Both the position numbers and the translations under genes were made by a program. 34,451 bases of DNA. Origin: Microcaldota archaeon. GTDB lineage: Archaea > Micrarchaeota > Micrarchaeia > Norongarragalinales > JACRGE01. Below, one piece after another: positions 800 through 15,515 of the stretch (position 1 is the first letter of the stretch; each line of letters opens with the position of its first letter). The notes beneath the pieces are model-generated. The model was not told the origin of the DNA. It did not search any database and saw only the letters and a list, made by a program, of their open reading frames with translations. The DNA is taken from NCBI GenBank assembly GCA_016212465.1, contig JACRGE010000076.1:1-34451 (forward strand). Direction: 5' to 3'.

Positions 800-2263
800 A
801 TGGGCATGCTATCACAAAGGGAGTTCAAGGCGGACAAGAAAAAGAATTTCTCGGAATGGTATAACACTATCATCTATGCTGCTGATTTGGCTGATGTCCG
901 CTATAACGTTCAGGGTTTTATAGTGCACAAGCCTTGGAGCATGTTCATCATCAAGAAAATTTATTCACTTTTCGAGGAAGCGCTTGAAAAAGATGGCCAC
1001 AAGCCTGTTTTGTTCCCTCTCGTAATTCCTGAAGAAAACTTTGAGAAAGAAAAGGAGCATGTTGAAGGATTTTCTCCCAACGTTTTCTGGGTTACTGAAG
1101 CAGGGGGGGAGAAATTGAAGAGAAAGCTCGCATTGAGGCCGACTTCTGAAACCGCCTTTTACCAGCTTTACTCTCTTTGGATACAAAGCAGATCTGATCT
1201 CCCGCTGAAACTTTATCAAAGCACCAACATGTTCCGCTTTGAAGCCGAGACCAATCCCTTCCTTCGGGGCAGGGAATTCCTTTGGATTGAAGCACATGAC
1301 GCGTTCGCAACGGAAGAGGAGTCAAAGGAACAGGTTGGAAAGGATTTGGGGATTGCTAAAGAAATTTTGTTGCAGCATTTGGGCCTTCCTGTGCTTATTT
1401 TCAAAAGACCTGATTGGGACAAATTCCCTGGAGCAGTTGAAACCTACGCATGCGACTGCCTCCTGCCTGACGGCAAGGCTTTTCAAGTAGCGACAACTCA
1501 CTTGCTTGGCCAGAACTTTTCAAAGCCGTTTGACATCAAATTCGTGGACGAAAAGGGCGGAAAGCACTTTGTTTTTCAGACCTGCTTTGGGCCAGGGATT
1601 TGGAGGATGGTTGGCGCATTGGTTTCTATTCATGGAGACGAACGAGGTCTTGTATTGCCTTTTTCGCTTTCGCCAGTTCAAGCAGTGATTATTCCTATTC
1701 CTAGGAAGGCAAGTGGTTCCGAAAAACTCCTCACCTATTGCAGGGAGATGAAAAAGCGTTTGGAGAAAAAGTTCATCGTGGACTTGGATGATTCGGAGAA
1801 AACCCCAGGTTATAAGTACAACGAGTGGGAAATGCGCGGCGTTCCCATAAGGATTGAGGTGGGAGAAAAGGAGTTGAAGGAAAAAACGCTTACGCTCGCT
1901 AGAAGAGACACCCGAGAAAGGATTGGGGTCAAGGAAGGGGATGCAGAAGAAAGAATAAAGGACACAGGGAACAGCATTTTCCAAAACCTTGTTGAAAATG
2001 CAGAAAGGGAGTTGAAGGAAAACATTCGCTCCGCCGATTCGCGGGAAGAGCTAAAGAAAATGGTTGAAAAAGGTGGTTTTGTTAAACTTGAGTTGTGTTC
2101 TCTTGAAAGTGAAGGAAAGGAGTGTGCGGACATCATAAAATACGAGACAGGCGGAGGGAAAGTGAGGGGAACGCTTTACGGAGAAAACCAAAAACCAGCT
2201 GGCAAATGCATTATATGCGGCAAAGCTGCCAAGGCAGTTGCATACGTTGCAAAACAGTATTAG
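800..2263 (+). CDS. proS: prolyl-tRNA synthetase, archaeal/eukaryotic type
   Basis: A 487-residue class II aminoacyl-tRNA synthetase that charges tRNA-Pro with proline in the cytoplasm. The class II core is plain: motif 1 around HKPVLFPLVIPE (about 69-80), the RPTSET proline/ATP site (about 113-118), motif 2 at NMFRFE...FLRGREFLWIEAHDAF (about 143-169), and motif 3 SIHGDERGLVLP (about 277-288). The anticodon-binding domain follows (VQAVIIPI onward), then the C-terminal zinc-binding domain of the archaeal/eukaryotic type, with cysteines at LELCS, KECAD and CIICG and a final tyrosine (QY). The bacterial-type editing insertion is absent. Length is normal for the archaeal form (about 480). High confidence. 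Confidence 0.97.
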   Translation: MGMLSQREFKADKKKNFSEWYNTIIYAADLADVRYNVQGFIVHKPWSMFIIKKIYSLFEEALEKDGHKPVLFPLVIPEENFEKEKEHVEGFSPNVFWVTEAGGEKLKRKLALRPTSETAFYQLYSLWIQSRSDLPLKLYQSTNMFRFEAETNPFLRGREFLWIEAHDAFATEEESKEQVGKDLGIAKEILLQHLGLPVLIFKRPDWDKFPGAVETYACDCLLPDGKAFQVATTHLLGQNFSKPFDIKFVDEKGGKHFVFQTCFGPGIWRMVGALVSIHGDERGLVLPFSLSPVQAVIIPIPRKASGSEKLLTYCREMKKRLEKKFIVDLDDSEKTPGYKYNEWEMRGVPIRIEVGEKELKEKTLTLARRDTRERIGVKEGDAEERIKDTGNSIFQNLVENAERELKENIRSADSREELKKMVEKGGFVKLELCSLESEGKECADIIKYETGGGKVRGTLYGENQKPAGKCIICGKAAKAVAYVAKQY

Positions 2264-2283
2264 ACTGGTTTGTTTTCCCGCAT

Positions 2284-2754
2284 TCAGACCTTCATTCGCA
2301 TGATTTTCCTGAATTCCATGAAGCCGAATTTCTTGTAAGCGGTTTGCGCTCTTTTGTTTTTTACTAGAGCGTACAATCGCATCCATTTTACTCCTTTTTT
2401 CTTGAACCACTGCCTCATTGATTTCATCAGCCTATGGCCGATGCCCTTTCTTCGAAATTCTGGCAGTAGATATATTTCGTTCAAGTTTCCGTAATCGTCG
2501 TCCTTCAGGATGGGAATGCCTTCTTTCAGTGTGCCAAAAACGAATCCAACGGTCTTTCCATCACAGACTGCCTTGAAAAAAACAGAATTGGGGTTCTTGA
2601 GTTCAGTAAGGTAGTATTTTCTCTTAAGCGGTCCGTGATTTTTAATCAATTTAATTTCTTTATCAATTTCCATCATTTGCCGAAGGAGCCGGTCGGACAA
2701 TTCAAGCAGTTCATCCAAATCTTTCTTATCCGCCTTTTCAATTACTAACTTCAT
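2284..2754 (-). CDS. GNAT family N-acetyltransferase (RimI-like)
   Basis: A 156-residue single-domain GNAT. The strand NLNEIYLLPEFRRKGIG carries motif A (RRKGIGHRLM, about residues 98-108), and the C-terminal half has the KNKRAQTAYKKFGFMEF pattern typical of motif B, where acetyl-CoA and substrate meet. The substrate is not known. The ATG follows the TAA of the upstream rps17e gene with no gap (taa-atg), so the two are one transcript and probably translationally coupled. It converges with proS, whose stop is 20 nt away. A role in acetylating a ribosomal or other protein would fit the operon partner, but that is inference. Confidence 0.88.
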   Translation of the reverse strand: MKLVIEKADKKDLDELLELSDRLLRQMMEIDKEIKLIKNHGPLKRKYYLTELKNPNSVFFKAVCDGKTVGFVFGTLKEGIPILKDDDYGNLNEIYLLPEFRRKGIGHRLMKSMRQWFKKKGVKWMRLYALVKNKRAQTAYKKFGFMEFRKIMRMKV

Positions 2755-2964
2755 TTACTCTTCCTCTTCCCTCTTGTGGGCTTTCCTTATTTCAACCACG
2801 ATTTCTCCAGCCAGCTTGTGTCTCGCTTCCTTTGAGTAACTTAACATACCGAGCTCTTTTAGCTTTTCGTGGTTTGTCTTGTAGTCTTCGCTGAACGCTC
2901 CCAGATATTTTTCCTGAAGCGCCTTTGCGATTACCCTCAAGTAATGCCCTTTCGTTTTTCCCAT
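2755..2964 (-). CDS. rps17e: small ribosomal subunit protein S17e (eS17)
   Basis: A 69-residue basic protein matching the archaeal/eukaryotic S17e pattern: a short basic N-terminus, then LRVIAKALQEKY, FSEDYKTNHEKLKEL, and SKEARHKLAGEIVVEIRK, comparable to the family pattern AKELLEKYP...F...F..NK..L.E......SKK.RN.IAGYI..L. Archaeal S17e is usually 60-70 residues, so it looks complete. It belongs to the 30S subunit. A GGAGAGTGAG-type ribosome site precedes the ATG. The gene-free DNA upstream (2965-3160 on this strand) holds three hairpins that would lie in its 5' leader if transcription starts beyond them. Confidence 0.8.
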   Translation of the reverse strand: MGKTKGHYLRVIAKALQEKYLGAFSEDYKTNHEKLKELGMLSYSKEARHKLAGEIVVEIRKAHKREEEE

Positions 2965-3035
2965 TTTCTCACTCTCCGTTTGATCGTCTAGTTAGCTTAA
3001 GAATAGAATAACGATAGTAGCCCCGGGCAGATTTT

Positions 3036-3063
3036 AAAGACCAGCTCCCGGCCGCAGGTCTTT
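3036..3063 (-). repeat. hairpin, 7-bp stem
   Basis: AAAGACC at 3036-3042 pairs with GGTCTTT at 3057-3063 around a GC-rich loop. It is the nearest to rps17e of three consecutive hairpins upstream of that gene, and could be part of its leader or a small terminator. Confidence 0.5.
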
Positions 3064-3111
3064 TAACTGCATGACGCCTTGCTGTTTTTTTCATTTGGCG
3101 TCATACAGTTA
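3064..3111 (-). repeat. inverted repeat / hairpin 1 of a covarying pair
   Basis: The arms AACTGCATGACGCC (3065-3078) and GGCGTCATACAGTT (3097-3110) pair over 14 positions, extended by T3064/A3111, with one non-Watson-Crick position (C3070 against A3105). On a minus-strand RNA this position becomes a U-G wobble, so the structure is better on the minus strand. It resembles its neighbour at 3115-3159, with base changes paired across the stem. Confidence 0.8.
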
Positions 3112-3114
3112 TTT

Positions 3115-3159
3115 AACTGCGTGAAGCCCTGTTTTCCTTTCGTTTGGCTTCACACAGTT
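3115..3159 (-). repeat. inverted repeat / hairpin 2 of a covarying pair
   Basis: The arms AACTGCGTGAAGCC (3115-3128) and GGCTTCACACAGTT (3146-3159) form a 14-position stem with the same C-A mismatch as hairpin 1 (C3120/A3154). Two pairs differ from hairpin 1 on both arms at once (A-T to G-C, and C-G to A-T), so pairing is kept while sequence changes. Confidence 0.8.
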
Positions 3160-3204
3160 GTTAATACTCGTTGGCCGAGTCTTGGTTTTCTTTTCTCCCA
3201 AGGG

Positions 3205-3229
3205 TCTTTTCTTTTTCTAAAAGAAAAGA
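3205..3229. repeat. 11-bp hairpin of the CCC-AGG type
   Basis: TCTTTTCTTTT (3205-3215) pairs perfectly with AAAAGAAAAGA (3219-3229) across a TCT loop. It is preceded by TCTCCCAAGGG, in the same arrangement as the units at 1-170. Confidence 0.65.
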
Positions 3230-3381
3230 GGCTTGTTTCGAACTGCCGTCAACGGGTTTCCTCCAAACTGTTCTTTCTTTTTCCTAGGTTTTTCTTTCTT
3301 TTTCAAAGCAAGATTTTTTTCTTTTCCCAGGTTTTCTTACAAGAAAGAAAAAGTTATGTCCAAAGCCCGCTATACTTGGCC

Positions 3382-3438
3382 GCTATACTACGGGGCTACG
3401 TGATAATGTGGGTGGCTGGGGTTTATTATTTTTCTAGT
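3382..3438 (+). repeat. 57-bp direct repeat, copy 1
   Basis: Identical over all 57 positions to 3561-3617, starting GCTATACTACGGGG and ending TTTTTCTAGT. A short partial copy of its start occurs at about 3473-3497 (CTTGGCCGCTATGTGATGGGG). Perfect identity in non-coding DNA means a recent duplication or strong constraint. Confidence 0.9.
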
Positions 3439-3560
3439 GCAGGTCTTTTTCGCAGAAAAGAAGTGCCTATGCTTGGCCGCTATGTGATGGGGCTAGTGGA
3501 GTGCTTTGGGAGGAGTGTTGTTTTAGTCGAGGTTTTTGCCGTAGCAAAAAAGTCGGGCTT

Positions 3561-3617
3561 GCTATACTACGGGGCTACGTGATAATGTGGGTGGCTGGGG
3601 TTTATTATTTTTCTAGT
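3561..3617 (+). repeat. 57-bp direct repeat, copy 2
   Basis: Second perfect copy, 179 nt downstream of the first. Between the copies sit two hairpins (about 3440-3458 and 3533-3550), so the duplicated unit may be hairpin plus repeat. Confidence 0.9.
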
Positions 3618-3730
3618 AAGGGTTTGAATTTCCCTCTGGCTCTTGTTTCCCTTCACCAGCACTCGTTCTCATTCTCTCCTTTCCAATCTCACTCTCTGCC
3701 TCTTTTCAAAGCAGAGGGGCTTGTTATCAA

Positions 3731-3740
3731 GGTATTTATT
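3731..3740 (+). promoter_or_regulatory. TATA-like box for the two-TM protein gene
   Basis: GGTATTTATT lies with its centre about 26 nt before the ATG at 3762, the distance expected for an archaeal leaderless transcript. It argues that the gene starts at 3762 or 3768, not at the ATGs further upstream in the repeat. Confidence 0.45.
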
Positions 3741-3761
3741 CTGCAGCTTCTTTATGAAAGC

Positions 3762-4394
3762 ATGACAATGCGGTACCTATGGCGCACATTCACATTTCTT
3801 TTATTAATGAATAATGCCATAGTAATTACTTTCCTGCTTCTCATGGGCATTGCCTTAGGCTATATTTTTTACGTCCCTTACTTGTTTTTCATAAAGAATT
3901 ACTTGTTGATGAGCGCGGTAATCCTTGGAATCTCTCTTCTATCCTTCCTTATCCTGCGGGCAACTGTCATATCCCTCCTCATTTTCTTTGATTTGAATCT
4001 GATTGCCGCGCCCCAAAAAGATTTTGTGGTCGGACTCCCGCTCGAGAAAGTGAGGGCGCGGGTCGTGCGTGGCTTCGTCGAGTATGAAGCGGAGTTCACT
4101 ACCTTGGATTCTTTCTTGTTTTATCCCGAGAAAGGCTTTCTTTACTTCATCAAGAAAGTGTTTGTCAGGGAATTTCCCCTTATTTTTATTTCGAGGTATC
4201 CCTTGGTTTTTGTCAGGCTTTTCAGAGCGGACGGACAGACGCGGGCGATGGTCATCGGAGACGAGGAAATCCATGCGGCTACGCTCATAAAACTCATTGA
4301 AACCGAGCTTAAGCAGACTCCGCTTCCACCAGAGGCTTCACGCAAGGAGAGAAACGAGACTCTCACGAGAAAGGGGCTCAGGAAGCGCTTCTGA
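3762..4394 (+). CDS. predicted membrane protein with two N-terminal TM helices, unknown function
   Basis: About 210 residues from the start MTMRYLWRTF. Two hydrophobic segments, about residues 10-40 and 45-75, are followed by a soluble C-terminal half with FDLNLIAAPQKDFV, a DEEIHAATLIKLIETEL helix and a basic C-terminus (RKGLRKRF), probably cytoplasmic. I recognise no family. The open frame extends upstream to 3501, but that part reads through the 57-bp repeat and has no signal; a TATA-like box at 3731-3740 supports the start used here. It stands alone, with its own promoter and the Hsp20 gene 91 nt downstream. Confidence 0.7.
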   Translation: MTMRYLWRTFTFLLLMNNAIVITFLLLMGIALGYIFYVPYLFFIKNYLLMSAVILGISLLSFLILRATVISLLIFFDLNLIAAPQKDFVVGLPLEKVRARVVRGFVEYEAEFTTLDSFLFYPEKGFLYFIKKVFVREFPLIFISRYPLVFVRLFRADGQTRAMVIGDEEIHAATLIKLIETELKQTPLPPEASRKERNETLTRKGLRKRF

Positions 4395-4424
4395 GTAGCG
4401 CATGTTATTCCTTTGCTGCTTCAA

Positions 4425-4481
4425 ATTATTTAAACCTTGACTGAGTAATTGTATTGCAAGACGTATACTGCATGAGGGTGG
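4425..4481 (+). promoter_or_regulatory. TATA box and Shine-Dalgarno of the Hsp20 gene
   Basis: ATTATTTAAACC at 4425-4436 is a good archaeal TATA box; the expected transcript start is about 4458, giving a leader of roughly 28 nt with GAGGGTGG at 4474-4481 just before the ATG at 4486. I see no clear heat-shock operator. Confidence 0.55.
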
Positions 4482-4485
4482 TTAA

Positions 4486-5037
4486 ATGAAAAAAAGAAGC
4501 CCTTTCGACGACGATATTTTCTCAGCTTTATTCGGGGACATGAATGACTTCTTTCCAGAAAGCACCATAAACCGGTTTAAGAGAATGCTGGAGGAAATGG
4601 ACATGCTGGATGATATTGGCGAGGCAAGGGCGCCGAAAATGGAGGAAATGGATGTTGAAATCAGTTGGACGGGTCCTGACGGTAAGCTGCACACAAGCCA
4701 TTTTAGCAACGTAGGAAGGCCCGGAAAAGGAAAACTGGCTGAGGAGAGAGAGCAGCCTCTGGTGGACGTGATGAACGAAAAGGAAGAGATTAGGATTGTC
4801 GCAGAGTTGCCGGGCGTGGAGAAGAACAATATAAAGCTGACCATCACCGACTCGACGCTTAACCTTTCCGTAGACGACCCTCAGAGGAAGTTCGCGAAAA
4901 CAATTAAGTTGCCTGCCAAGGTTTTGGGAGAATATGCTAAAGCAACCTACAAGAACGGCATCCTTGAGGTAATACTCAAGAAAAAGGAGCCTGAAAAGGA
5001 AGAGAAAAAAAGCGGTAAAGAAATCAAGGTAGGCTAA
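4486..5037 (+). CDS. hsp20: Hsp20/alpha-crystallin family small heat shock protein
   Basis: 183 residues. The alpha-crystallin domain spans about 90-170: PLVDVMNEKEEIRIVAELPG with the conserved ELPGV turn, then NNIKLTITDSTLNLSV and the closing strands KTIKLPAKV...ATYKNGILEVILKK, whose NGILEV is the family hallmark (A.y.NGvLev...K). The N-terminal region (1-85) is acidic and phenylalanine-rich (DDDIFSALFGDMNDFF), as is common for the arm that drives oligomer assembly and client binding. The C-terminus is a charged Lys/Glu tail. It is an ATP-independent holdase that keeps unfolding proteins soluble. It has its own promoter and stands alone. Confidence 0.93.
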   Translation: MKKRSPFDDDIFSALFGDMNDFFPESTINRFKRMLEEMDMLDDIGEARAPKMEEMDVEISWTGPDGKLHTSHFSNVGRPGKGKLAEEREQPLVDVMNEKEEIRIVAELPGVEKNNIKLTITDSTLNLSVDDPQRKFAKTIKLPAKVLGEYAKATYKNGILEVILKKKEPEKEEKKSGKEIKVG

Positions 5038-5074
5038 TTTCATTTCCTCCTGCTTTTCCCAACCCCGAAGGCAA

Positions 5075-5089
5075 GGTATAAAAGATACC
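5075..5089 (+). promoter_or_regulatory. TATA box inside a short inverted repeat
   Basis: GGTATAAAAGATACC combines an archaeal TATA box with a 5-bp inverted repeat (GGTAT/ATACC). It lies 29-43 nt before the ATG at 5118. Such symmetry could mark a repressor site, or be chance. Confidence 0.5.
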
Positions 5090-5117
5090 GTGAAGTAAAA
5101 AGTGTCGATGATGTTAA

Positions 5118-6017
5118 ATGGGTTCTATTGTCGTCAGCTGGGACCTTGTCATTGTAATTCTCATTTTTACTGCAATCCTTCTTACTTTGATCGGTGTGGT
5201 GGGCCTTAAGAGGAATCTTAAGGACAGAACAGCTGCTCTGCTCCTGATATGCTATGCAGTTGTATTCGTTCTCTTCTTTCTGCAAATGACGCACCCAGAG
5301 ATTTTATTCAGGCCTCCACCAGTAAGCACCATAAACATCCTAGAGCGGGGCGTACAGAATTTCAACAGGACCGTAAGCGTTCTCGAGTTGCGAGAGGGAG
5401 AAAAACTGCCTGAAGTCATCATAACAAGGGAGCTACTTGTTTACCAGGCGAACAAGACTGACCGGTTTGGGAGAACCTACTTGGCCAACTACTCCACCAT
5501 TACAATAACCATAGAAAACCCCAACAATGTTTCGCTGAAGAATTTGTTGATTAAGGAAAGCATTCCTGAGGAGGTCGCGAAGGAAATAAGCGAGCTCGTG
5601 TTCGGTGGGGAAAAACCCATGAATACTTCCATGGAGATAGAGAATCAGAGTGCTAGTGAGCTTGCTGGCGTTTCCAGAATTGGTTTAGGAGGAATTCGCA
5701 GGAGCGTAAAGGAAATCCGATTCGTTGGAAACGATACGGTCAAATCGCAGAAGAAGAGCATTGTGGTTCAGTGGATATTTGACAACCTGGACCCAGGACA
5801 GAAGAAAACCGTTAACTATACCGTTGAAAAGCAACTCACTAAAGATGTTTTAGCAAACTATACTTCGCCCGACGTAATTGCAGAGAAAGCTGTTACCCCC
5901 CCTCCTCAGCCTATTTTCACGATTGAGAAAGTGGACTTGAAGTACATTCTGGCGGTCATAGTCTTGATCATCATCATAGTCGTTATCTACACCCAGTTCA
6001 TCATGCCGCACAACTGA
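5118..6017 (+). CDS. three-TM membrane protein with large extracytoplasmic domain, unknown family
   Basis: 299 residues. Two N-terminal hydrophobic helices (about 8-30 and 40-58) and one at the C-terminus (about 275-296, ILAVIVLIIIIVVIY). The ~215-residue segment between them carries many Asn-X-Ser/Thr sequons (NRT, NYS, NVS, NTS, NQS, NYT), suggesting an extracytoplasmic location and N-glycosylation. It includes NVSLKNLLIKESIPEEV and WIFDNLDPGQKKTVNYTV, a pattern like DUF11/CARDB-type beta domains (oxidation-prone 'conflict' repeats of archaeal surface proteins). A related phrase, LRIVDEIPLEL...WELEELAPQES, occurs in the surface protein at 24852-26279. Function unknown. Confidence 0.75.
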   Translation: MGSIVVSWDLVIVILIFTAILLTLIGVVGLKRNLKDRTAALLLICYAVVFVLFFLQMTHPEILFRPPPVSTINILERGVQNFNRTVSVLELREGEKLPEVIITRELLVYQANKTDRFGRTYLANYSTITITIENPNNVSLKNLLIKESIPEEVAKEISELVFGGEKPMNTSMEIENQSASELAGVSRIGLGGIRRSVKEIRFVGNDTVKSQKKSIVVQWIFDNLDPGQKKTVNYTVEKQLTKDVLANYTSPDVIAEKAVTPPPQPIFTIEKVDLKYILAVIVLIIIIVVIYTQFIMPHN

Positions 6018-6161
6018 TTCTTGACTCCTCTTTTTTTGCTTTCTTTTTTCTTACGCTTGGAATTCTCTCCATTCTACCGCCTGCTTTGGACCTCTTTTTC
6101 TTTTTTTCCTCTGTTGTTTCTCCGTTGTGATTGCTCTGCGACTGGAAAACCGCCCCCGCTT

Positions 6162-6244
6162 CGTTTATAACCGCAGTGCCTCTTCTTTTTACACAATGGC
6201 ACATTGAAACACATTCCTTTCAGACTGTGCGTAATGAGGTGATG
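6162..6244 (+). promoter_or_regulatory. TATA-like box and near-perfect Shine-Dalgarno for a 38-codon ORF
   Basis: GTTTATAACC near 6163-6172 may be a TATA box, and GAGGTGATG at 6236-6244 matches the expected archaeal anti-Shine-Dalgarno (complement of CACCTCC) very well, ending 2 nt before the ATG at 6247. Confidence 0.5.
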
Positions 6245-6246
6245 GC

Positions 6247-6363
6247 ATGAGGATTGAAGTTTCGGGGCTGTCTTACCGAGAGATTGAAAAAATGGCATTG
6301 AGGTTTTCTGCTGAGGCATTGAATCTTCATCGAATAGGTGAAAAAACGTTTTTGACTGTTTAG
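6247..6363 (+). CDS. small protein, 38 residues, unknown
   Basis: A short ORF (starts MRIEVSGLSYREIEK, ends GEKTFLTV) supported by the strongest ribosome site in the window (GAGGTGATG, 6236-6244) and by a TATA-like box about 80 nt upstream. It is followed at once by T-rich DNA (GGCTTTTTTTGC, then TTTTTTATT) that could terminate transcription. Predicted as one amphipathic helix with a short basic tail; no family recognised. Because it is short it could be a leader peptide, a small regulator or a chance ORF. Confidence 0.45.
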   Translation: MRIEVSGLSYREIEKMALRFSAEALNLHRIGEKTFLTV

Positions 6364-6439
6364 CAAACCCCGGCTTTTTTTGCTTTTTTATTTAAATGGC
6401 TTAGTTGAAGATCTTGGAGTTTTTTAGAGGCAAAAACTG

Positions 6440-6542
6440 CGAAATCCTAAGTTTAGCTACCTGGCTTCAAAAAACGCGTCTAACGCTGGATTCTGCTTTC
6501 ACAAAAACAGTGAAACTACGAGGAGGACATTTTCAACAGAGA
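6440..6542 (+). repeat. dispersed intergenic element, copy A (right part)
   Basis: Aligns with 22311-22413 over about 103 nt with two single-base gaps. Shared blocks, in order: CGAAA.CC, AGTTT, GCTT.(A)AAAA, GGATTC.GCTTT, AAAA, AAC.AC.AGG and GACATTTTCAA. Both copies are followed within ~150 nt by TTTAAAT. Confidence 0.6.
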
Positions 6543-6613
6543 CTGTCCAAAAAAGCACGAGCGACGAAATGCCTTTCTGCTTGCAACGAAACAATTTTGT
6601 GTTTCTTTAGAGG
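6543..6613 (+). repeat. dispersed intergenic element, copy A (left part)
   Basis: The first 28 nt (6543-6570) match 15572-15599 at 22 of 28 positions without gaps (blocks TGTCC, AAAAAG, GACGAAAT). Both then continue through CGAA and AATTTT to GTGTTT(C)TTTAGAGG (6599-6613 here, 15623-15635 there). Confidence 0.6.
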
Positions 6614-6688
6614 CAACGCATTTAGGGAAGGCTTCAGTAAAACCAAAGAATAGAATTATTGGACGCTCTCTTTTCAACAGAGCTTTAT

Positions 6689-7327
6689 TTAAATTATGTC
6701 TCTTAAACGGGGGTTGTTCTTTAGCCGCTCTCTCGCTCTTTTCTCAAGCCTACTCACCGTTTTGGGATGGACTCCCATTTCCTTAGCCAGCTGCTCTTGT
6801 GTGACAGCCTCGTTTCCAAAAAGCCCCCACGTTCTTACTATCACGCTCCTTTCCTGCGGAGGCAGTTTGTTGATTCCATCATAGAGGACTCTCATCAGCT
6901 CACGCGCCTCCGCAACTTCACTTACTGACCCCTTCCGAGGAATCCTCTCCGCCGGCTCAAGCTCTTTTTCCTCCTCCCTTTCAGGCTCTGCGTGCAACGA
7001 AGTCGTGGAAAGCATTGGTTCGAGGGAAAGGGTTTTCTCTACTTTTTCCACGCTCCAGTTGAGTTCTTTGCTTAGCTCGCGAACCCTAGGCCTCCTTCCG
7101 TGCTCTTTTTCGAAATCGATTATCCTGTTCTGCATTTTATTCCAGTCATCCAGAGTTGGGATCGACACCCTTATTTGGAATCCCAAGTTGTCCCTAGCTC
7201 GGTCCATCCAACCCTTCAAATAAGGGCCAATGAATGTTTTGAAGGAACGGCCGCGAAGGGGGTCAAAATCTTTTACTTTCGTTATCACGGCCATGCGCCC
7301 TACTTGGACGAGGTCATTGAACTCCAA
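6689..7327 (-). CDS. sigma-70 family protein, C-terminal part (regions 2.2-4) split off by an in-frame stop
   Basis: 212 residues if translation starts at TTG 7327. It begins at sigma region 2.2 (FNDLVQVGRM, compare bacterial DLIQEG) and continues with KDFDPLRG, region 2.3/2.4 (RSFKTFIGPYLKGWMDRA), region 3 (IPTLDDWNKMQNRI, then HGRRPRVRELSKELNWSVEKVEK), a Glu-rich linker, and region 4 with its helix-turn-helix (VTQEQLAKEMGVHPKTVSRLEK, then RARERL). It has no region 2.1 of its own: that lies at the end of the ORF just upstream in the same frame, separated by TAA at 7337-7339. It could be the tail of a nonsense mutant, a reinitiated second polypeptide, or part of one protein if the TAA is a sequencing error. 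AGGT at about 7333-7336 is a weak ribosome site for the TTG. Confidence 0.85.
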   Translation of the reverse strand: MEFNDLVQVGRMAVITKVKDFDPLRGRSFKTFIGPYLKGWMDRARDNLGFQIRVSIPTLDDWNKMQNRIIDFEKEHGRRPRVRELSKELNWSVEKVEKTLSLEPMLSTTSLHAEPEREEEKELEPAERIPRKGSVSEVAEARELMRVLYDGINKLPPQERSVIVRTWGLFGNEAVTQEQLAKEMGVHPKTVSRLEKRARERLKNNPRLRDII

Positions 7328-7336
7328 TGCAGACCT

Positions 7337-7339
7337 TTA
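7337..7339 (-). other. in-frame TAA stop inside a sigma-70 gene
   Basis: TAA aligns without gaps to Glu117 (GAA, 9914-9916) of the 337-aa paralogue: FARKK...YRGM-stop-RSALEFNDLV against IARSK...QRGGERADMDVEDLV, both 24 positions long. One G-to-T change explains it. No other stop or frameshift is seen in the 781-codon frame 6689-9031. Confidence 0.9.
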
Positions 7340-9031
7340 CATACCCCTATACCCTTCTACTATTTTTTTACGCGCGAATCTTCTTATCAGCGGGTCCATT
7401 TTCTTTAAAACTACATCCAGCGCTTCTGTGTCACCTTTTGCAGCGGCAACAACTTCAGCAACTGCAATGTAAGTGGGGCTTTCTTCCTTGAGCTCACTGT
7501 ATCTACGCATTTCCCTCATTCCTTTCCACACCTGGGACAACCCGCCGTTTACTTCTATTCCGTAAAGCAAATCGAATCTCTTCAACTGAATCAGCAATGG
7601 AGTGCTGACATCCCTGCTGCCGAAAATCTTTTGTAGCTCCGTAACAAGGTTCTGTGGGTCAGCATAAGAAGAGCGTCTCTTCATTTTCTTACTCGGGAAG
7701 CCTGCTTTTTTCTTGAATGCTTCAAGCCCTCCGTGCCATGTTGAGATGGCGTAAACAAGTGAACCCAACCCCATGCTTCTTAATTCTTCTCTTTTCGGAA
7801 AACGTCCCAGTGTTTCAACTACGGGTGCGATTGCTGCAACCGCATTTCCTTCGTTACGGAACTGGTTCGTGTAAAAAGTTTGCTCCCATCCGAGTTTATC
7901 CACTATCGCGTCCCACGAGCCATAGTGCTTGTTTCTTATCGCGGTAGCGAAGTTCCTTCCACCAATCCGAAACACTTCCTCCTGAGTTGGTCTTCTACCG
8001 AACTCGGTTCTTATCCCCCGCAATTGGTCCATAAACTCTTCTTTGCTTGAAAACTTTAGTTTCCTTCTCTTTGGTTTGGGTTCTTTCAGCCACCTCAGGT
8101 CTTTCTTTATCTCACTGTAGGTGCCGTGAGTTTTTTTGTTCAGGAAATAGAGTATGTCAAAGCGTTTTTCTGCAATCAAGTCGTCTTGAGTAGGCTGGCG
8201 CCCCAAACGCTCGCGAACTGCCTTCAATGCATTCAAGAATGTTTCCTTGTCTTCAAAAGGATGCGGGGGCCTGCCTACTGGTTCTACGCCCAACCGGAGG
8301 CGGGTTGCCACATGACCGCCATGGTAGTATCTTATGGCATGTTCTAGTTCTGGATGGTTTTTTGTAATATGCGCCGGAGAAGGATACTTTCCACCGTGCA
8401 TTTTGATTATGGGCGCCAGTGCTTTCCGCAGGTTGTTGAATTCAGTGAAAGGGTTTTTCTCGGGCTCAATGCCCATCCGCTCGCGCACGGCAGGATATCC
8501 CTCGTGCGTATTCATTCCGAGAATCAGGTCAGACCTTTTTTCCGCTTGCAGTTGTGCGTGAGTCGGGAATCCTCCTTCATGCGCTTCCATCCACTTTTTT
8601 AATTCAATTGAGAAAAAGCTCCAGTCCCTCATTGGGCTCAGTGGCTTGGGTGTTAATACGACTGGCAACCCCATTTTCTTCCTTACTGCGTTGAGCCCGC
8701 CGTGGAAGTTGTCTATAGCTGAGATCAGGTCCCCTCTTTTTTCTCTTTTGAGAATAGGGTTGCTAAGTTCCCCGTGCTTCTCAACGAGTTTCCTCAGCTC
8801 GGTTTCAAGCTTTGCGAAATCTCGATACGGAGATTCAGTAGGCGGTGCTTCCATCACCCCCCGCACGTTCCTGAATCCACCATGGTACTTGAATCCTTTT
8901 ATCAAATCGAATCTCTTAAGTCCCCTAAGAAAATCATTGGATGGAAATTTTCCATACTCTCTCCAGAGCTTTTCTACGTCTTTCTTGAAGACGTTGAAGT
9001 CCCTGTATTTGGACGGAGGCATGGGGCTCAT
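7337..9031 (-). CDS. eight-repeat (R.DL..HGG..V..LG) protein ending in sigma region 2.1; upstream part of a split sigma factor
   Basis: 564 residues. Eight tandem ~55-residue units at about 8-61, 69-122, 134-187, 196-248, 262-316, 330-382, 396-445 and 459-506, each with a first helix, then K/R-R-x-DL and an aromatic/HGG...V+..(L/M)G ending (KRFDLIKGFKYHGGFRNVRG; KRGDLISAIDNFHGGLNAVR). The last 43 residues are sigma region 2.1 (AKGDTEALDVVLKKMDPLIR), as in the 337-aa paralogue. TAA stops it at 7337-7339, and the same frame reads on through RSALEFNDLVQVGRM into the next ORF. Start: ATG 9031, with CTTAAAAT (9053-9060) about 25 nt upstream. The repeats resemble homing-endonuclease-associated repeats and GG-type repeats of plastid proteins; a DNA- or RNA-binding role is inference. 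Confidence 0.85.
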   Translation of the reverse strand: MSPMPPSKYRDFNVFKKDVEKLWREYGKFPSNDFLRGLKRFDLIKGFKYHGGFRNVRGVMEAPPTESPYRDFAKLETELRKLVEKHGELSNPILKREKRGDLISAIDNFHGGLNAVRKKMGLPVVLTPKPLSPMRDWSFFSIELKKWMEAHEGGFPTHAQLQAEKRSDLILGMNTHEGYPAVRERMGIEPEKNPFTEFNNLRKALAPIIKMHGGKYPSPAHITKNHPELEHAIRYYHGGHVATRLRLGVEPVGRPPHPFEDKETFLNALKAVRERLGRQPTQDDLIAEKRFDILYFLNKKTHGTYSEIKKDLRWLKEPKPKRRKLKFSSKEEFMDQLRGIRTEFGRRPTQEEVFRIGGRNFATAIRNKHYGSWDAIVDKLGWEQTFYTNQFRNEGNAVAAIAPVVETLGRFPKREELRSMGLGSLVYAISTWHGGLEAFKKKAGFPSKKMKRRSSYADPQNLVTELQKIFGSRDVSTPLLIQLKRFDLLYGIEVNGGLSQVWKGMREMRRYSELKEESPTYIAVAEVVAAAKGDTEALDVVLKKMDPLIRRFARKKIVEGYRGM

Positions 9032-9052: not shown

Positions 9053-9060
9053 ATTTTAAG
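9053..9060 (-). promoter_or_regulatory. TATA-like box of the eight-repeat sigma gene
   Basis: On the minus strand this reads CTTAAAAT, centred about 25 nt before the ATG at 9031, consistent with a leaderless archaeal transcript. No ribosome site precedes the ATG. Confidence 0.45.
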
Positions 9061-9250: not shown

Positions 9251-10264
9251 CTATTCCTCCAGCAGGTCCTTGAGCTCGAAGAGGCGGGGGCTTCTCGCGA
9301 GCTTTTTCCTCGCCCTTTTTTCGATAATCTGCGCCCTGCTGTGGCTCACGCCAAGGTCGCTTCCAATTTCCTCGAAAGTTCTTTGCGGTTCGGTCAAGTG
9401 CCTTTCAAGAATGACCTTTTGCTCGCGGGCATCCAGCCTCGCTTCTATTTCCTCTAGGAGCGTCTGCCTTAGTTTTTTCCTGCCAATCCTCTGCTCCATT
9501 GTTTCAACTGGAGGTGCGGCAAAAGGCTCGCCCCGCGTTCCCTCGGATTCTGGCGAAACCGGTTCGTCAGTTGAACCCGCTCCTTCCATCACAGGCGCAA
9601 GTGATTGAGTTTTCTCAAGCTTTTCCAAGCTCCACCCGAGCTCCTTCCTCAATTCCTCTTGCGTCGGCGGCTTCCCTTCTCTTGATTCGAAATTCGATTT
9701 AACTCGGTTCATTCTGTTCCATGCAAGGCGCTGGTATTCAGGCACGCGGAGCTTGAAAGCTTCTTTGCCCATGCTTCTGTCCATCGCCTGCTTAATCCAT
9801 GGAGTAATGAATGTGCTGAATTCAGTTTCCAGCTCCGGGTCGTATTCGGGCATTTTCTTATGAAGGATAAGCCTTCCCACTTGAACGAGGTCTTCGACGT
9901 CCATGTCAGCCCGTTCGCCGCCCCTTTGTAGATACGGTGCCTTGCTCCGTGCAATGCTTTTTATCAACGGGTCTATTTTTTCCAAAACCCGCTTGATTGC
10001 TTCCGCATCGCCTTTTTTCGCAGCCAGCACATCTTCAAGCGAAGGCCTGTTCGGTCTAGCAACTTGCTTCTTCAGCTCCTTTGCTGGCAGCCCCAGCTTT
10101 TCTTTGACTGTTTTAAACCCGCCGTACTGCGACACCGCCTTCAGTAAATCATTACGCTTTTTTTCAAGAAGCAGCCGCCTGCTCAAGCCCCCGTGCGCTT
10201 CAGCGAACCCTTGGAGCTCCGGTCTCAACGCTTCGAAATCCCCGTACTTCCTCGGCCTTGCCAT
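9251..10264 (-). CDS. bacterial-type sigma-70 family factor with one N-terminal HGG repeat
   Basis: 337 residues, intact. Residues 7-58 are one R.DL...YGG...V.EKLG repeat. Then sigma region 2.1 (AAKKGDAEAIKRVLEKIDPL, 81-100), 2.2 (DLVQVGRLILHKKMPEYDPE, 125-144), 2.3/2.4 (FSTFITPWIKQAMDR, 149-163), region 3 (LRVPEYQRLAWNRMNRV, then GKPPTQEELRKELGWSLEKLEK), an acidic Ser/Pro-rich linker (about 224-252), and region 4 (ARLDAREQKVILERHL, then HTH FEEIGSDLGVSHSRAQIIEK and RARKKLARSPRLFELKDLLE). The order and the C-terminal basic LARSP..F.LKD.L match group 1-2 bacterial sigma factors. In region 2.3 the bacterial TWW is TPW, so one of the two melting tryptophans is replaced. Sigma normally brings bacterial RNA polymerase to -10/-35 promoters; what it does with archaeal RNA polymerase is unknown. 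A TATA box (TTTTTATAAT, 10286-10295) lies 26 nt before the ATG. Confidence 0.92.
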   Translation of the reverse strand: MARPRKYGDFEALRPELQGFAEAHGGLSRRLLLEKKRNDLLKAVSQYGGFKTVKEKLGLPAKELKKQVARPNRPSLEDVLAAKKGDAEAIKRVLEKIDPLIKSIARSKAPYLQRGGERADMDVEDLVQVGRLILHKKMPEYDPELETEFSTFITPWIKQAMDRSMGKEAFKLRVPEYQRLAWNRMNRVKSNFESREGKPPTQEELRKELGWSLEKLEKTQSLAPVMEGAGSTDEPVSPESEGTRGEPFAAPPVETMEQRIGRKKLRQTLLEEIEARLDAREQKVILERHLTEPQRTFEEIGSDLGVSHSRAQIIEKRARKKLARSPRLFELKDLLEE

Positions 10265-10285: not shown

Positions 10286-10295
10286 ATTATAAAAA
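10286..10295 (-). promoter_or_regulatory. TATA box of the 337-aa sigma gene
   Basis: Minus-strand TTTTTATAAT, centred 26 nt before the ATG at 10264. It also contains TATAAT, the bacterial -10 consensus, so recognition by a sigma factor (autoregulation) cannot be excluded, but I see no clear -35 TTGACA at 16-18 nt. Confidence 0.5.
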
Positions 10296-10397: not shown

Positions 10398-13300
10398 ATG
10401 TTCGTGCGCAAAGTCATCTTGAAGAACTTCAAGTCATTTCCTTCTGCTGCAATTCAGTTCGATAAAGGCATTTCAACGATAGTGGGTCCGAACGGCAGCG
10501 GGAAGTGTTTGAGAGGCGATTCCCTGGTTTTCCTCTCGGACGGGAATTTAAAGCCAATCAGTGCTATTGTCGAGTCTCAGTTGCAGGCTTCGCAGTCAAA
10601 GGATTTTTTGGAAGACGGTGAGATGACGCTGGAAACCGACCGAGGAATATCCGTTTTGTCGTTGAATCCTCTTACAGGAAAAATCGAAAAAAAGCGCGTC
10701 CAGGCGTTTGTGAAGAGAAAATCCCCTGAAAAACTGTTGGAAATAAAAACTGCCGGCGGCAAGTCAGTTGTAACCACCTATTATCACCCTGTTCTGACAA
10801 TCAAAGACGGGATGATAACTTCAGCACACGCAGACGAATTGAAGAAAGGCTCTTTCATCGCAACTCCCCGTGAGTTTCCTGTTGAAGAAAAGCTCTTGAA
10901 TTTCGTTCTCGAATTAGCTAAACAGCCGAACAGCCTGTATTTGGGACGGGGATGCGAGCGGCTTCGCACCCTTTTGCGAAGCAGGAAAGCATTTGATAGA
11001 AAGAAATGGAAGCAGATTGCCAGCGAAGCTGGACTGAGCAAAACGACTCTAAAAGGACTGATTGACGGACAGTCCATCAAGCTGAACGACGCATTTAGGC
11101 TAACGCAATTTCTTGTACTGAACCAAATTGAGGCGACCGAATTGCTTTGCGAAGTGAAGGCAAAGAACCAGAGGAAAGCTATTCGCCTGCCCGTTGGATT
11201 CTCGCTGGAACTTGCCAAGTTCTTGGGCTATGTTATCTCGGAGGGGAGAGTAGCCAATAACGAGGTGTTTTTCTTCAACGACTCGCCAGAGCTTAGGAAC
11301 GATTTCAGGGAATGCGCGTCTAGGGTATTCGGCTGCAACATCACGGAATGCTCCTCCGGCGAAAAAAAGTTTCTAGTACTTTCATCTAAGGTTGTGACTG
11401 TTTTTTTGGACAAGTTGTTTGGCCTGCACGAAAAGCAACATGCTTCAAGAAAAGAAGTTCCTTCCCTCCTGTTTCAAGTTCCCCTCCCTTTCGTTAAAGC
11501 CTTTCTTTCGGCGTTGTTTGACGGCGATGGCTTCGTTTCCGGGAAAAAAGACACTAGGGCGTGCGTGGAATATTCTTCTGCAAGCAAGTCTCTTGTAACG
11601 CAATTGTCTTTTCTATTGCTTCGCTTCGGGGTTGTAGCGCGAACAAGCGCGGGGTTGAAATTCGCTTCCAACACCGAGCTGAAAATAAAGCGCCCTTATT
11701 ACCGGGCGACTGTTTACGGAATAGAAAACGCAAGGAAAATGCTTTCCACACTTGAATTCAGCATTGAAAAAAAACGCAAGCTTCAGGAATTGGTTGAATC
11801 GCGGGCAAACAAATCAGGTAACACAAACGTTGACGTAATTCCCTGTTCTAATAGTGTTATAAAAAACCTGCTGGAGGAGGCAGGTTATTCTGCAAGGCGG
11901 CTGAAGTTTGTAAAGCCAAGCAAGATACGCGCCTACTACGAGAACCGTTGCTTCCCCACCCGCGGCGGTTTGCTTGAAGTAATCTCCTTACTGAAAAAAA
12001 CAGATGCGGACGTTAATTCAGAATTGCTTCTGACGCTTGCTTCGTCCCAGGTTTTTTGGGACAGGATTGTGGAATTAAATGAAACTGCTGGTGTGGAATG
12101 GGTTTACGATTTATGCGTTGAAGGCAACCACAATTTCTTGGCCGAAGGCATCTTCGTGCATAACAGCAACGTGATCGACGCGCTGTTGTTCACGTTCGGC
12201 GAATCCTCTTTAAAGAGTATGCGCGTGAGGAAGACGAGCGACCTCATCTTCGCGGACCACAACGTAGCAGAGGCGACAGTGGCTCTGGAAGGAGACAACG
12301 GCGAAAAGCACGAGGTCAAGCGCTTCCTGAGGAAAGACGGAAAAACCAAGTATACCTTGGATGGAAAGCGCGCGAAGAAGTATGTCGTTGAGGATTTCCT
12401 TGCCTCAGAAAGCATCTTCAAATCCAACATCATCAAGCAAGGCGAAGTCCAGAGGATAGTGGAGATGAGCCCAAAGAACAGGAGGACGCTCATAGACTAT
12501 ATCGCCAACATTTCGGAGTATGAACAGAAGAAAGCAGAAGCAATGAATGAATTGAATGCAGTGGACGTCCGCATGAAGGAGGCAGTTGCAATACTCAACG
12601 AGAAAGAAGGGTATTTGAAGGAGTTGAGGAAGGAAAAAGAGGATGCTGAAAAGTTCGTGAACCTCAAGAAAGAGCACGAGTCCTTGAAGGCAACCCTTCT
12701 TTACTTGGACGTGAAGGCGTATGAAAAGGATTTCGAGAAGGAGGTAAACTCTATTCTTGACCTGAACAGCAAGCTGGCTTCTGTGAAGGAATTGATTGAA
12801 GCCCATGCGAAGAGCATCAGCGCCAAGTTTGCTGAAAAAGATTCAATCAACCAACAGATCATGCAAAAAGGCGAAGCCAAGCAAATTCTTCTCCAGAAGG
12901 AAATTGACGGTCTTTCCCAGGAAATTGAGAAAGCGAGGAAGCTGATAGATGAGAAAAGGGAGTTCATAAGCAGGAGCGAAGGAAAATCAATGGAGCTAGG
13001 ACTTGTGATGAAGCGGGCTGGAGACGAGATAATCGGCTGCGAAAAACAGGTTGCTTCAAACCAGTCCGAGATGGACGTGTTGAAGAGGCTGCTTGACGCC
13101 GAACAGAGCGAATACTCCAAGCTGATGGACCAGTCCAAAAACTTTTCCTCAAAGTTCTACGAGGCCAAGCAAATACTGGAGCAGTGCAACCAGGAGATGC
13201 TGGCCTGCAGGGAATCCCTTGTAGAGGTCCAGTCCCAGGTTTCACTCTTGAAGGAAAAGCAGGAGTTGAAGAAGCGGGAACTGGAGAGACTCAGAATCGG

Positions 13301-15515
13301 CGTTTTCGACGATCTGGGGGATAAGCGGAAAGAGCTTTTGTTGAAGAGGGAAAAGATTCAGGAGCAGATGCTTCAATTGGATGAAAAGCTTGGTGGGCTG
13401 CTGGAGAAAGAAAAGGAGTTGAGCGAGCGGCTGACTGTGTTGAATGATTTGATTCTGCTTGCACGAGAGAAGATTACCGTCATTGAATCCAGGCTAGAGG
13501 CAGTGAAGGAATCCGAAGTCTCTAAAGCAGTGGACGAGCTATCGGATTTGAGCGGCGTATACGGAACAGTTGAAGCGTTGTGCAACTATGACTCGCGTTA
13601 CTCCCTTCCAATCCAGGTTGCGCTTGGGCCGCGGCTCACCTATGTGGTTGTAGACTCTTCAAAGACCGCGAGGAAAGCGATTGAGTTCTTGAAGCAAAGG
13701 AAGCTCGGCAGGATCTCTTTTATTCCGTTGGACAGGATTAAACCAGTGCCTCTTGGAAGCGAGGACAGGAAACTCAAGTCCAGCAAGGGCGCAGTGGATT
13801 TCTTGATTGACTTACTCGAATTCAACGAGAAATACCGTAAGGCATTCGAGTTCGTGTGTGGCAACACGCTGTTGATGAAGACGCTTGAAGACGCTGAAGA
13901 GCTCATCGGAAGGACTAGGATGGTCACCCTGGAGGGCGAGCTCATCGAGCCTTCTGGCCTTATGACTGGCGGAATCGTTTCAGAAAAGATAAACCCTTTC
14001 AAGGAACGAAAGGATTTAGAGGAATGGAACAAGAAGCTGGAGGAAAGCAGGTCCGAGAAAGGCAGGATAGATGAGGAGCTTGGGGACTTGAGTAAGGAAT
14101 TGAATGAGTTGAGGAAGAAGAAGGCTGAAGCTGATTTGAGTGACAAGACTTTTCAAATAGAGCTAGAACATCTGGCGGGGCAGGAGATGAGCATTCTTGA
14201 AAAGAAGAAGAACATTGCTGCGGCCATAAAAAGCCTTGAGGAAGAAATCAACGTGTTGGAGCAGGAGGTGCTTGCTGGCGATGAGAAGAGAGCGGAGTTG
14301 ATCAGAAAGCTCTCGGATTTGAACATCCGTGCCTTGGATGCAAAGCAAAAGATCGACTTTGAGAAAGAGCAGAAATTTGGGTTGATGATAAAGGAAAAAG
14401 AGCACAAGATCTCCGAGTTGAAGATCAGAATCTCTCAATACGAGAGCACACTTTCCACGCTGAAGACGCAGAAGAGGTACTACGAGAAAGAGCACTTCGG
14501 TTACGAGAGTTCAGTGGCTGAGTTGCAGAACGAAATTGAGAAAGCAAAGGAGGATATGGTTGAGAGTGACAAGCTCATTAAAGAAAATACTCTTTTTTTA
14601 AGAGAAAAAATAAAGGAACAGAAAGAAGTTTCTTCTACTTTAAGAGATTTAATGGATTTAAGAGACAAACTTGACAAAGAGCTTCAGAAGCTCGGGAACG
14701 AAAAAGGTAAAATGGAGTTCGAGCGCGAAAGGATTGAGCGGGAGATTCAGGAACACCAGTTGCGCAGGGTGGCGGCAGAAACGAAGTTGGCTGACCTGAA
14801 GGCTGAATTCAGCGCCTTCCAAGGCGTTACCGTGCTGGAGAGAACTGACGAAGACCGGCCTGAGCTCGCTTCAAGGCTGAAGGAAGCTCAAGTAGAGTTA
14901 GACGCAATTGGCAGCGTGAACCTCAAGGCTTTGGAGCTCTTTGACCAAAAAGTGCAGGAATTTGATGAACAGAATTCAAGGGTCAAACAGTTGTTGAACG
15001 AAAAGGAGGCTGTCCTCAATTTAATAAGGGAGATTGAAGGCAAGAAAGTAAATACCTTCATGAACACCTTCAACCTCATCAACTCCAACTTCCAGCGGCT
15101 CTTCTCCCAAATCTTCAGAGGCAGCGGGTGCCTCTTCCTAGAGAAATACGGCGAGGACGGAAAGGAAAAACCCCTTCAGGAATGGGGGCTGACCATCCAG
15201 GTCCAGCTAGAGAACAAGGAGTTCAAGTACCTTGAGCTCATGAGCGGAGGCGAAAAGGCCCTTATTGCTTTATTGTTCATCTTCTCCATCCAGATGTACA
15301 ACCCGTCGTCTATATACATATTGGATGAAGCGGATGCCGCTCTCGACCAAGAAAACAGTTTGAAGCTTGTCGCGTTGTTGAAAGAGCTTTCCAAGGACTC
15401 GCAGTTCATCGTCGTCACACACAATGAAACAGTTTACCGCAAGGCGGATTGCCTCGTCGGAGTAGCGATGAGCAAGGAAGGCTCGAAACTGGTGGAAGTC
15501 AAGCTCACCCAATGA
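10398..15515 (+). CDS. smc: chromosome segregation ATPase SMC, with in-frame intein in Walker A
   Basis: 1705 codons; after splicing 1152 residues, normal for SMC. N-terminal ATPase: VRKVILKNFKSF, then IVGPNGSGK, where the P-loop is cut after Lys36; the intein occupies 37-589 and the extein resumes with SNVIDALLFTFGE at 590. Two long coiled-coil arms flank a hinge at about 1047-1200 (LSGVYGTVEALCNYDSRYSLPIQVALG, with conserved glycines, and GLMTGG). C-terminal ATPase: signature MSGGEKALIALLF (Ser1616) and Walker B YILDEADAALD (Asp1643, Glu1644), then FIVVTHNE. SMC dimers organise and segregate chromosomes with ScpA/ScpB kleisin partners; neither partner is in the window. Confidence 0.97.
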   Translation: MFVRKVILKNFKSFPSAAIQFDKGISTIVGPNGSGKCLRGDSLVFLSDGNLKPISAIVESQLQASQSKDFLEDGEMTLETDRGISVLSLNPLTGKIEKKRVQAFVKRKSPEKLLEIKTAGGKSVVTTYYHPVLTIKDGMITSAHADELKKGSFIATPREFPVEEKLLNFVLELAKQPNSLYLGRGCERLRTLLRSRKAFDRKKWKQIASEAGLSKTTLKGLIDGQSIKLNDAFRLTQFLVLNQIEATELLCEVKAKNQRKAIRLPVGFSLELAKFLGYVISEGRVANNEVFFFNDSPELRNDFRECASRVFGCNITECSSGEKKFLVLSSKVVTVFLDKLFGLHEKQHASRKEVPSLLFQVPLPFVKAFLSALFDGDGFVSGKKDTRACVEYSSASKSLVTQLSFLLLRFGVVARTSAGLKFASNTELKIKRPYYRATVYGIENARKMLSTLEFSIEKKRKLQELVESRANKSGNTNVDVIPCSNSVIKNLLEEAGYSARRLKFVKPSKIRAYYENRCFPTRGGLLEVISLLKKTDADVNSELLLTLASSQVFWDRIVELNETAGVEWVYDLCVEGNHNFLAEGIFVHNSNVIDALLFTFGESSLKSMRVRKTSDLIFADHNVAEATVALEGDNGEKHEVKRFLRKDGKTKYTLDGKRAKKYVVEDFLASESIFKSNIIKQGEVQRIVEMSPKNRRTLIDYIANISEYEQKKAEAMNELNAVDVRMKEAVAILNEKEGYLKELRKEKEDAEKFVNLKKEHESLKATLLYLDVKAYEKDFEKEVNSILDLNSKLASVKELIEAHAKSISAKFAEKDSINQQIMQKGEAKQILLQKEIDGLSQEIEKARKLIDEKREFISRSEGKSMELGLVMKRAGDEIIGCEKQVASNQSEMDVLKRLLDAEQSEYSKLMDQSKNFSSKFYEAKQILEQCNQEMLACRESLVEVQSQVSLLKEKQELKKRELERLRIGVFDDLGDKRKELLLKREKIQEQMLQLDEKLGGLLEKEKELSERLTVLNDLILLAREKITVIESRLEAVKESEVSKAVDELSDLSGVYGTVEALCNYDSRYSLPIQVALGPRLTYVVVDSSKTARKAIEFLKQRKLGRISFIPLDRIKPVPLGSEDRKLKSSKGAVDFLIDLLEFNEKYRKAFEFVCGNTLLMKTLEDAEELIGRTRMVTLEGELIEPSGLMTGGIVSEKINPFKERKDLEEWNKKLEESRSEKGRIDEELGDLSKELNELRKKKAEADLSDKTFQIELEHLAGQEMSILEKKKNIAAAIKSLEEEINVLEQEVLAGDEKRAELIRKLSDLNIRALDAKQKIDFEKEQKFGLMIKEKEHKISELKIRISQYESTLSTLKTQKRYYEKEHFGYESSVAELQNEIEKAKEDMVESDKLIKENTLFLREKIKEQKEVSSTLRDLMDLRDKLDKELQKLGNEKGKMEFERERIEREIQEHQLRRVAAETKLADLKAEFSAFQGVTVLERTDEDRPELASRLKEAQVELDAIGSVNLKALELFDQKVQEFDEQNSRVKQLLNEKEAVLNLIREIEGKKVNTFMNTFNLINSNFQRLFSQIFRGSGCLFLEKYGEDGKEKPLQEWGLTIQVQLENKEFKYLELMSGGEKALIALLFIFSIQMYNPSSIYILDEADAALDQENSLKLVALLKELSKDSQFIVVTHNETVYRKADCLVGVAMSKEGSKLVEVKLTQ
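10506..12164 (+). mobile_element. LAGLIDADG homing-endonuclease intein in the SMC P-loop
   Basis: 553 residues from Cys37 to Asn589. Block A: CLRGDSLVFLSDG; block B: TTYYHPVLTI with the TxxH histidine at about residue 130; C-terminal blocks: WVYDLCVEGNHNFLAEGIFVHN with penultimate His588 and Asn589, followed by extein Ser590. Cys at the start, His-Asn at the end and Ser +1 make it a standard, apparently splicing-competent intein. Two LAGLIDADG motifs are visible, LAKFLGYVISEGRV (about 271-284) and VKAFLSALFDGDGFV (about 366-380), both with the acidic catalytic residue, so the endonuclease may be active. A helix-turn-helix-like segment (WKQIASEAGLSKTTLKGLI) precedes the first motif. Without splicing the ATPase would lack the serine of GPNGSGKS. 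Confidence 0.95.

Follow-up and report, generated by a model that had tools for sequence, protein, structure and literature searches.

Archaeal sigma factors have already been described in the literature: sigma-70-like genes were reported from DPANN archaea (fam00359 in PMC8204110, which leaves their role unresolved in the part that deals with them), and archaeal sigma-70-like proteins are attributed to Rinke et al. in the relevant passage of PMC6126073. The gene analyzed here lies in a window of 34,451 nucleotides, i.e. the whole stretch of DNA that was studied, which is contig C54 of a draft assembly (1.2 Mb, 104 contigs, 91% complete). It resembles the DPANN proteins in the occurrence of sigma-70 regions on an archaeal contig, here in a genome with the TATA-binding protein (TBP), and in the scattered distribution of the family, here 55 of 301 genomes. 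On the other hand, it differs from them in the possession of a long N-terminal repeat array and of a stop codon inside region 2; the parts of the two papers that concern these genes describe their presence, not fusions with repeat arrays.

The two-subunit sigma factor SigO-RsoA of Bacillus subtilis, whose function has been shown (PMC8103513), likewise has its sigma domains spread over two adjacent reading frames. However, in SigO-RsoA the sigma 2 and sigma 4 domains reside on separate proteins, each of the co-encoded polypeptides being a whole domain, whereas here the division falls inside region 2, between 2.1 and 2.2, and separates a single helix. Moreover, our locus has no conserved restart, and the arrangement is not conserved in relatives (33 of the 34 confident homologues in the class-level set are free of stops within the match). 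A third comparison is offered by MzaA of the MZA anti-phage system (NF041931, PDLC02203), which also carries its sigma regions behind a long N-terminal part, and whose model is matched in its C-terminal third by the sigma part of our gene. However, only the sigma part matches, with 56.4 bits against the NCBIfam cut-off of 800, and no other MZA genes were recognized among the neighboring ORFs read in the window; membership in the MZA system was therefore rejected.

A broken gene by itself matters little. What this one points to is a varied and fast-changing family of bacterial-type sigma factors in archaea with TBP-based initiation, some members of which are fused to repeats of the homing-endonuclease type, and for which the role of a sigma factor is putative.

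The interrupted gene and its intact paralogues

The features on which the following discussion relies are listed below; all of them are on the minus strand.

10286-10293, minus strand: TATA-like octamer TTTATAAT at -29 to -22 of the paralogue's ATG 10264 (read by eye)
9251-10264, minus strand: intact sigma-like paralogue of 337 aa, one repeat unit plus sigma regions 2-4 (Pfam, alignment)
9914-9916, minus strand: GAA codon of the paralogue, coding for Glu117, opposite the stop (gap-free alignment)
9053-9060, minus strand: TATA-like octamer CTTAAAAT at -29 to -22 of ATG 9031 (read by eye)
7337-9031, minus strand: N-terminal ORF of 564 aa from ATG 9031, homing-endonuclease-associated repeat array (PF18780, E 4e-12, above the cut-off) plus sigma helix 2.1
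7337-7339, minus strand: in-frame TAA, codon 565, in the loop between regions 2.1 and 2.2 (sequence, alignment)
7325-7327, minus strand: possible restart codon TTG, 9 nt past the stop, with a weak AGGT upstream (sequence, ribosome-site energy)
6689-7327, minus strand: C-terminal ORF, 212 aa if started at TTG 7327, sigma regions 2.2-2.4, 3 and 4 (Pfam, alignment with RpoS and SigA)

The TTA found at 7337-7339 of the plus strand is a TAA on the minus strand (7339-7337), where it forms codon 565 of the frame that begins with ATG 9031. The entire frame (9031-6689) comprises 781 codons, i.e. 779 sense codons and two stops, the second of which is the terminal TAA at 6691-6689; the read-through frame (9031-6692, 780 codons) is open apart from codon 565. 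The earlier note, which had reported a sigma gene of 781 codons split by this one codon and otherwise open, was right in both the coordinates and the placement of the stop. The TAA does not lie within a homopolymer run.

The read-through protein has recognizable regions 2, 3 and 4 of the sigma-70 family, the TAA being the only interruption of the frame through region 2. In particular, PF04545, PF04539 and PF04542 each exceed the Pfam cut-off in the 212-aa C-terminal ORF, which contains the downstream part of region 2 together with regions 3 and 4, TIGR02937 reaches 70.9 bits compared to its cut-off of 42.9, and the C-terminal ~220 residues (with X at the stop) can be aligned with the RpoS and SigA chains of solved structures. 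This alignment, together with that of the relatives, places the stop between regions 2.1 and 2.2, where the cut had been proposed, in a variable loop that differs in length from one relative to another.

The gap-free alignment with the adjacent paralogue that had been reported previously, with the stop opposite Glu117, is reproduced here, and the codon at 9916-9914 is indeed GAA. Identity is modest and amounts to 7 of 24 residues from -16 to +7 of the stop and to 9 of 24 directly after it. The further claim, that a single G-to-T change explains the stop, is plausible but unproven, because the paralogue is a single, distant one (only ~35% identical to the interrupted gene) and because several sense codons are one step away from TAA (GAA, AAA, CAA, TCA, TTA, TAC and TAT), at a position that belongs to a variable loop.

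Both starts share the same type of signal, namely a TATA-like octamer at -29 to -22 and no Shine-Dalgarno site (ribosome-site energy of +1.3 at ATG 9031 and +0.7 at the paralogue start), which suggests leaderless transcripts of the archaeal type, with the reservation that the motif was read by eye. The genome encodes three sigma-like paralogues; the third, which is intact as well, is located on another contig (C92), so that two intact copies remain beside the interrupted one. The presence of TBP, which among the control genomes is found only in the four archaea, identifies the host genome as archaeal. Basal transcription initiation in Archaea does not rely on sigma factors.

Two further observations concern the assembly and the window. 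A search for tRNAs at E values up to 0.001 recovered only three tRNA genes in this genome rated 91% complete; four of the sampled contigs appeared as N over their whole length, and masking may explain part of the low count. Within the window, an SMC-like ATPase of 1705 codons (10398-15515, plus strand) contains an apparent intein: as read from the translation, its P-loop is broken after GPNGSGK by ~550 residues that end with HN before S.

Absence of decay and comparison with relatives

The sequence on both sides of the stop looks like coding sequence, and its similarity to sigma factors exceeds chance. Compared with a sigma model built for the class, the read-through frame (X at the stop) obtains 209 bits in an alignment that spans 229 of 231 positions, with the reservation that this sequence was itself part of the model. 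When both it and its paralogue were removed before the model was built, the read-through sigma domain still obtained 113 bits and ranked 19th of 26, i.e. it scored like the intact members. In most 60-codon segments on either side of the stop, the reading frame carries a codon signal of ~0.1-0.37 bits per codon (one segment is near 0), as against ~0 in the shifted frames. The gene thus combines one stop and zero frameshifts with coding signal before and after the stop, and the earlier statement that the remainder shows no decay holds for frame, codon bias and profile score alike. According to a rough neutral model, at least ~60 substitutions (2.6%) since the appearance of the stop would leave one stop and no frameshift with p ~0.006; the bound on drift is soft, since the model assumes indels of frameshift size at 1/10 of the substitutions, and without indels the figure is 0.33. 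Continued selection on the two halves would leave the gene just as free of decay.

The set used for comparison comprised 301 genomes of the class, none of them from the same genus or family, and the scan at the level of the phylum covered the same 301. Region 2 (PF04542) was found in 37 of these genomes and the model of regions 2-4 in 55. Among the 60 places matched by region 2, 57 are free of stops within the match, the exceptions being the gene discussed here and two sigma-like members of the order, G009:C23 (TAA) and G011:C61 (TAG), each with the stop at another position; since a region-2 search sees only stops inside region 2, these three cases say nothing about a preferred position. With the model of regions 2-4 at E < 1e-27, 34 places were found, and the sole one with a stop within the match is the gene in the window; none of the other 33 has a stop at the position of TAA 7337-7339. 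The remaining stops obtained with either model belong to weak, divergent members and lie at other positions. In the divergent G009:C23 (L034), the in-frame TAA (within the match at 12649-12768 of its contig) replaces the usual glutamine of D-L-x-Q-E in region 2.2, and an ATG follows three codons later.

The layout of repeats followed by a sigma domain also exists in a single uninterrupted frame, in G096:C25 (756 aa) and in G020:C39 (452 aa). The layout is shared but the sequences are distant, as the G020 frame lacks a recognized region 4 and the sigma part of G096 is divergent (E 1e-9). No close relatives or homologues were found in the genome_contigs or IMG/VR scans; phage and plasmid matches were limited to sigma factors of the bacterial type, with 24-30% identity. 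A match to RadA in L006 was spurious.

Interpretation of the stop

We propose, with a probability of roughly 0.6, that a recent nonsense mutation has hit one of the three sigma-like paralogues. The ancestral gene would have encoded one protein of 780 aa, in which an array of DNA-binding repeats was fused to a sigma domain, and a single recent nonsense mutation would have inactivated or truncated it. Translation from the presumably leaderless ATG 9031 would then end behind helix 2.1; the product would be a repeat protein of 564 aa that lacks a functional sigma domain, and regions 2.2 to 4 would be left as open sequence, probably little translated or not at all. Such a loss could be tolerated, because two intact paralogues remain. 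As in pseudogenes, the disabling lesion is found where the relatives are intact, and since all relatives of comparable conservation that we found are uninterrupted, a recent mutation (or one wrong base in the assembly) is most likely, rather than a purposeful two-part protein. The 564-aa product may still bind DNA, given that similar repeat arrays precede other C-terminal parts, as in G081:C7. The existence of interrupted copies beside intact ones suggests turnover within the family, whose individual copies would not be essential.

An error in the consensus or assembly, with a sense codon at 7337-7339 and one 780-aa protein in the organism, is unlikely, but deserves serious consideration. The assembly to which the contig belongs is a draft in 104 contigs, one substitution separates the gene from an intact form, and the remainder of the gene looks as if it were under selection. 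However, no clear internal stop was seen elsewhere in the same genome in ~40 genes with homologues (~11,000 aligned residues), so errors appear infrequent, although this limits their rate only weakly; the stop also lies outside any homopolymer run. Moreover, G009:C23 and G011:C61 indicate that lesions do occur in the sigma-like family, and stops in these other members of the order favor a real one here.

Alternatively, the two ORFs might form a working sigma factor of two polypeptides, in which translation would stop at the TAA and resume at TTG 7327, and the chains would come together at the junction of regions 2.1 and 2.2. The stop does lie in a loop of variable length, a TTG with AGGT upstream follows within 9 nt, the coding signal is kept in both parts, split sigma factors exist (SigO-RsoA, PMC8103513), and in G009:C23 a TAA within region 2 is likewise followed soon by an ATG. 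We nevertheless consider this arrangement highly unlikely. The earlier note had offered it next to a nonsense mutation, which fits best, and a sequencing error, and had pointed to related genomes as a source of evidence; the other confidently matched sigma genes of the class have no stop in the match, the two relatives with the repeat-plus-sigma layout are uninterrupted, and no relative shares the position of the stop or the restart, which argues against two polypeptides. The stop in G009 lies ~11 residues downstream of this position, within region 2.2, and SigO-RsoA is divided between the whole domains 2 and 4 and not within region 2. The ribosome-site energy at TTG 7327 (-6.1) is equaled or surpassed by 17% of the internal start-like codons of the genome and by 44% of the ATG starts of long ORFs, so reinitiation there would be possible but the site is nothing special. 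Unlike the two intact starts, with their octamers at -29 to -22, the TTG has no TATA-like box upstream. That two chains, one with the repeat array plus helix 2.1 and the other, reinitiated at TTG 7327, with regions 2.2-4, would act jointly in archaeal transcription, as a sigma factor cut inside region 2, is more doubtful still.

The recoding of TAA finds no support in this genome, because in a 268-kb sample TAA terminates 39 of the 133 ORFs of at least 200 aa and the genes with homologues are free of clear internal stops (a first tblastn tally of 23 stops consisted mostly of antisense frames or alignment ends, which were dropped after overlap filtering); reassignment of TAA was therefore rejected, in line with the previous remark that it is not an obvious recoding codon. 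Production of some full-length protein by stop-codon read-through or a suppressor tRNA is very improbable: the frame does stay open for 215 more codons that look selected, but TAA is a regular terminator here and TAA-A is not known as a leaky context.

Other sigma-like and repeat-containing genes of the class

The comparison set contains several loci with unusual architectures. In place of a sigma domain, G081:C7 (L203; 1948-3618, minus strand) has, behind a related repeat array, a stretch that resembles, as judged by eye, a LAGLIDADG homing endonuclease. Positions 1356-8649 of G097:C13 (L193; minus strand) hold a head-to-tail series of seven sigma-like genes on one strand, each 313-366 codons long, and all seven match the class model of regions 2-4; an array of this size looks unusual for an archaeon. 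Finally, G099:C30 (L029; 3996-7088) and G048:C21 (L194; 1230-4208) encode two sigma proteins of ~1000 aa with serial region-4 repeats, in which one sigma core is followed by seven further stretches whose similarity to the model is confined to its region-4 part.
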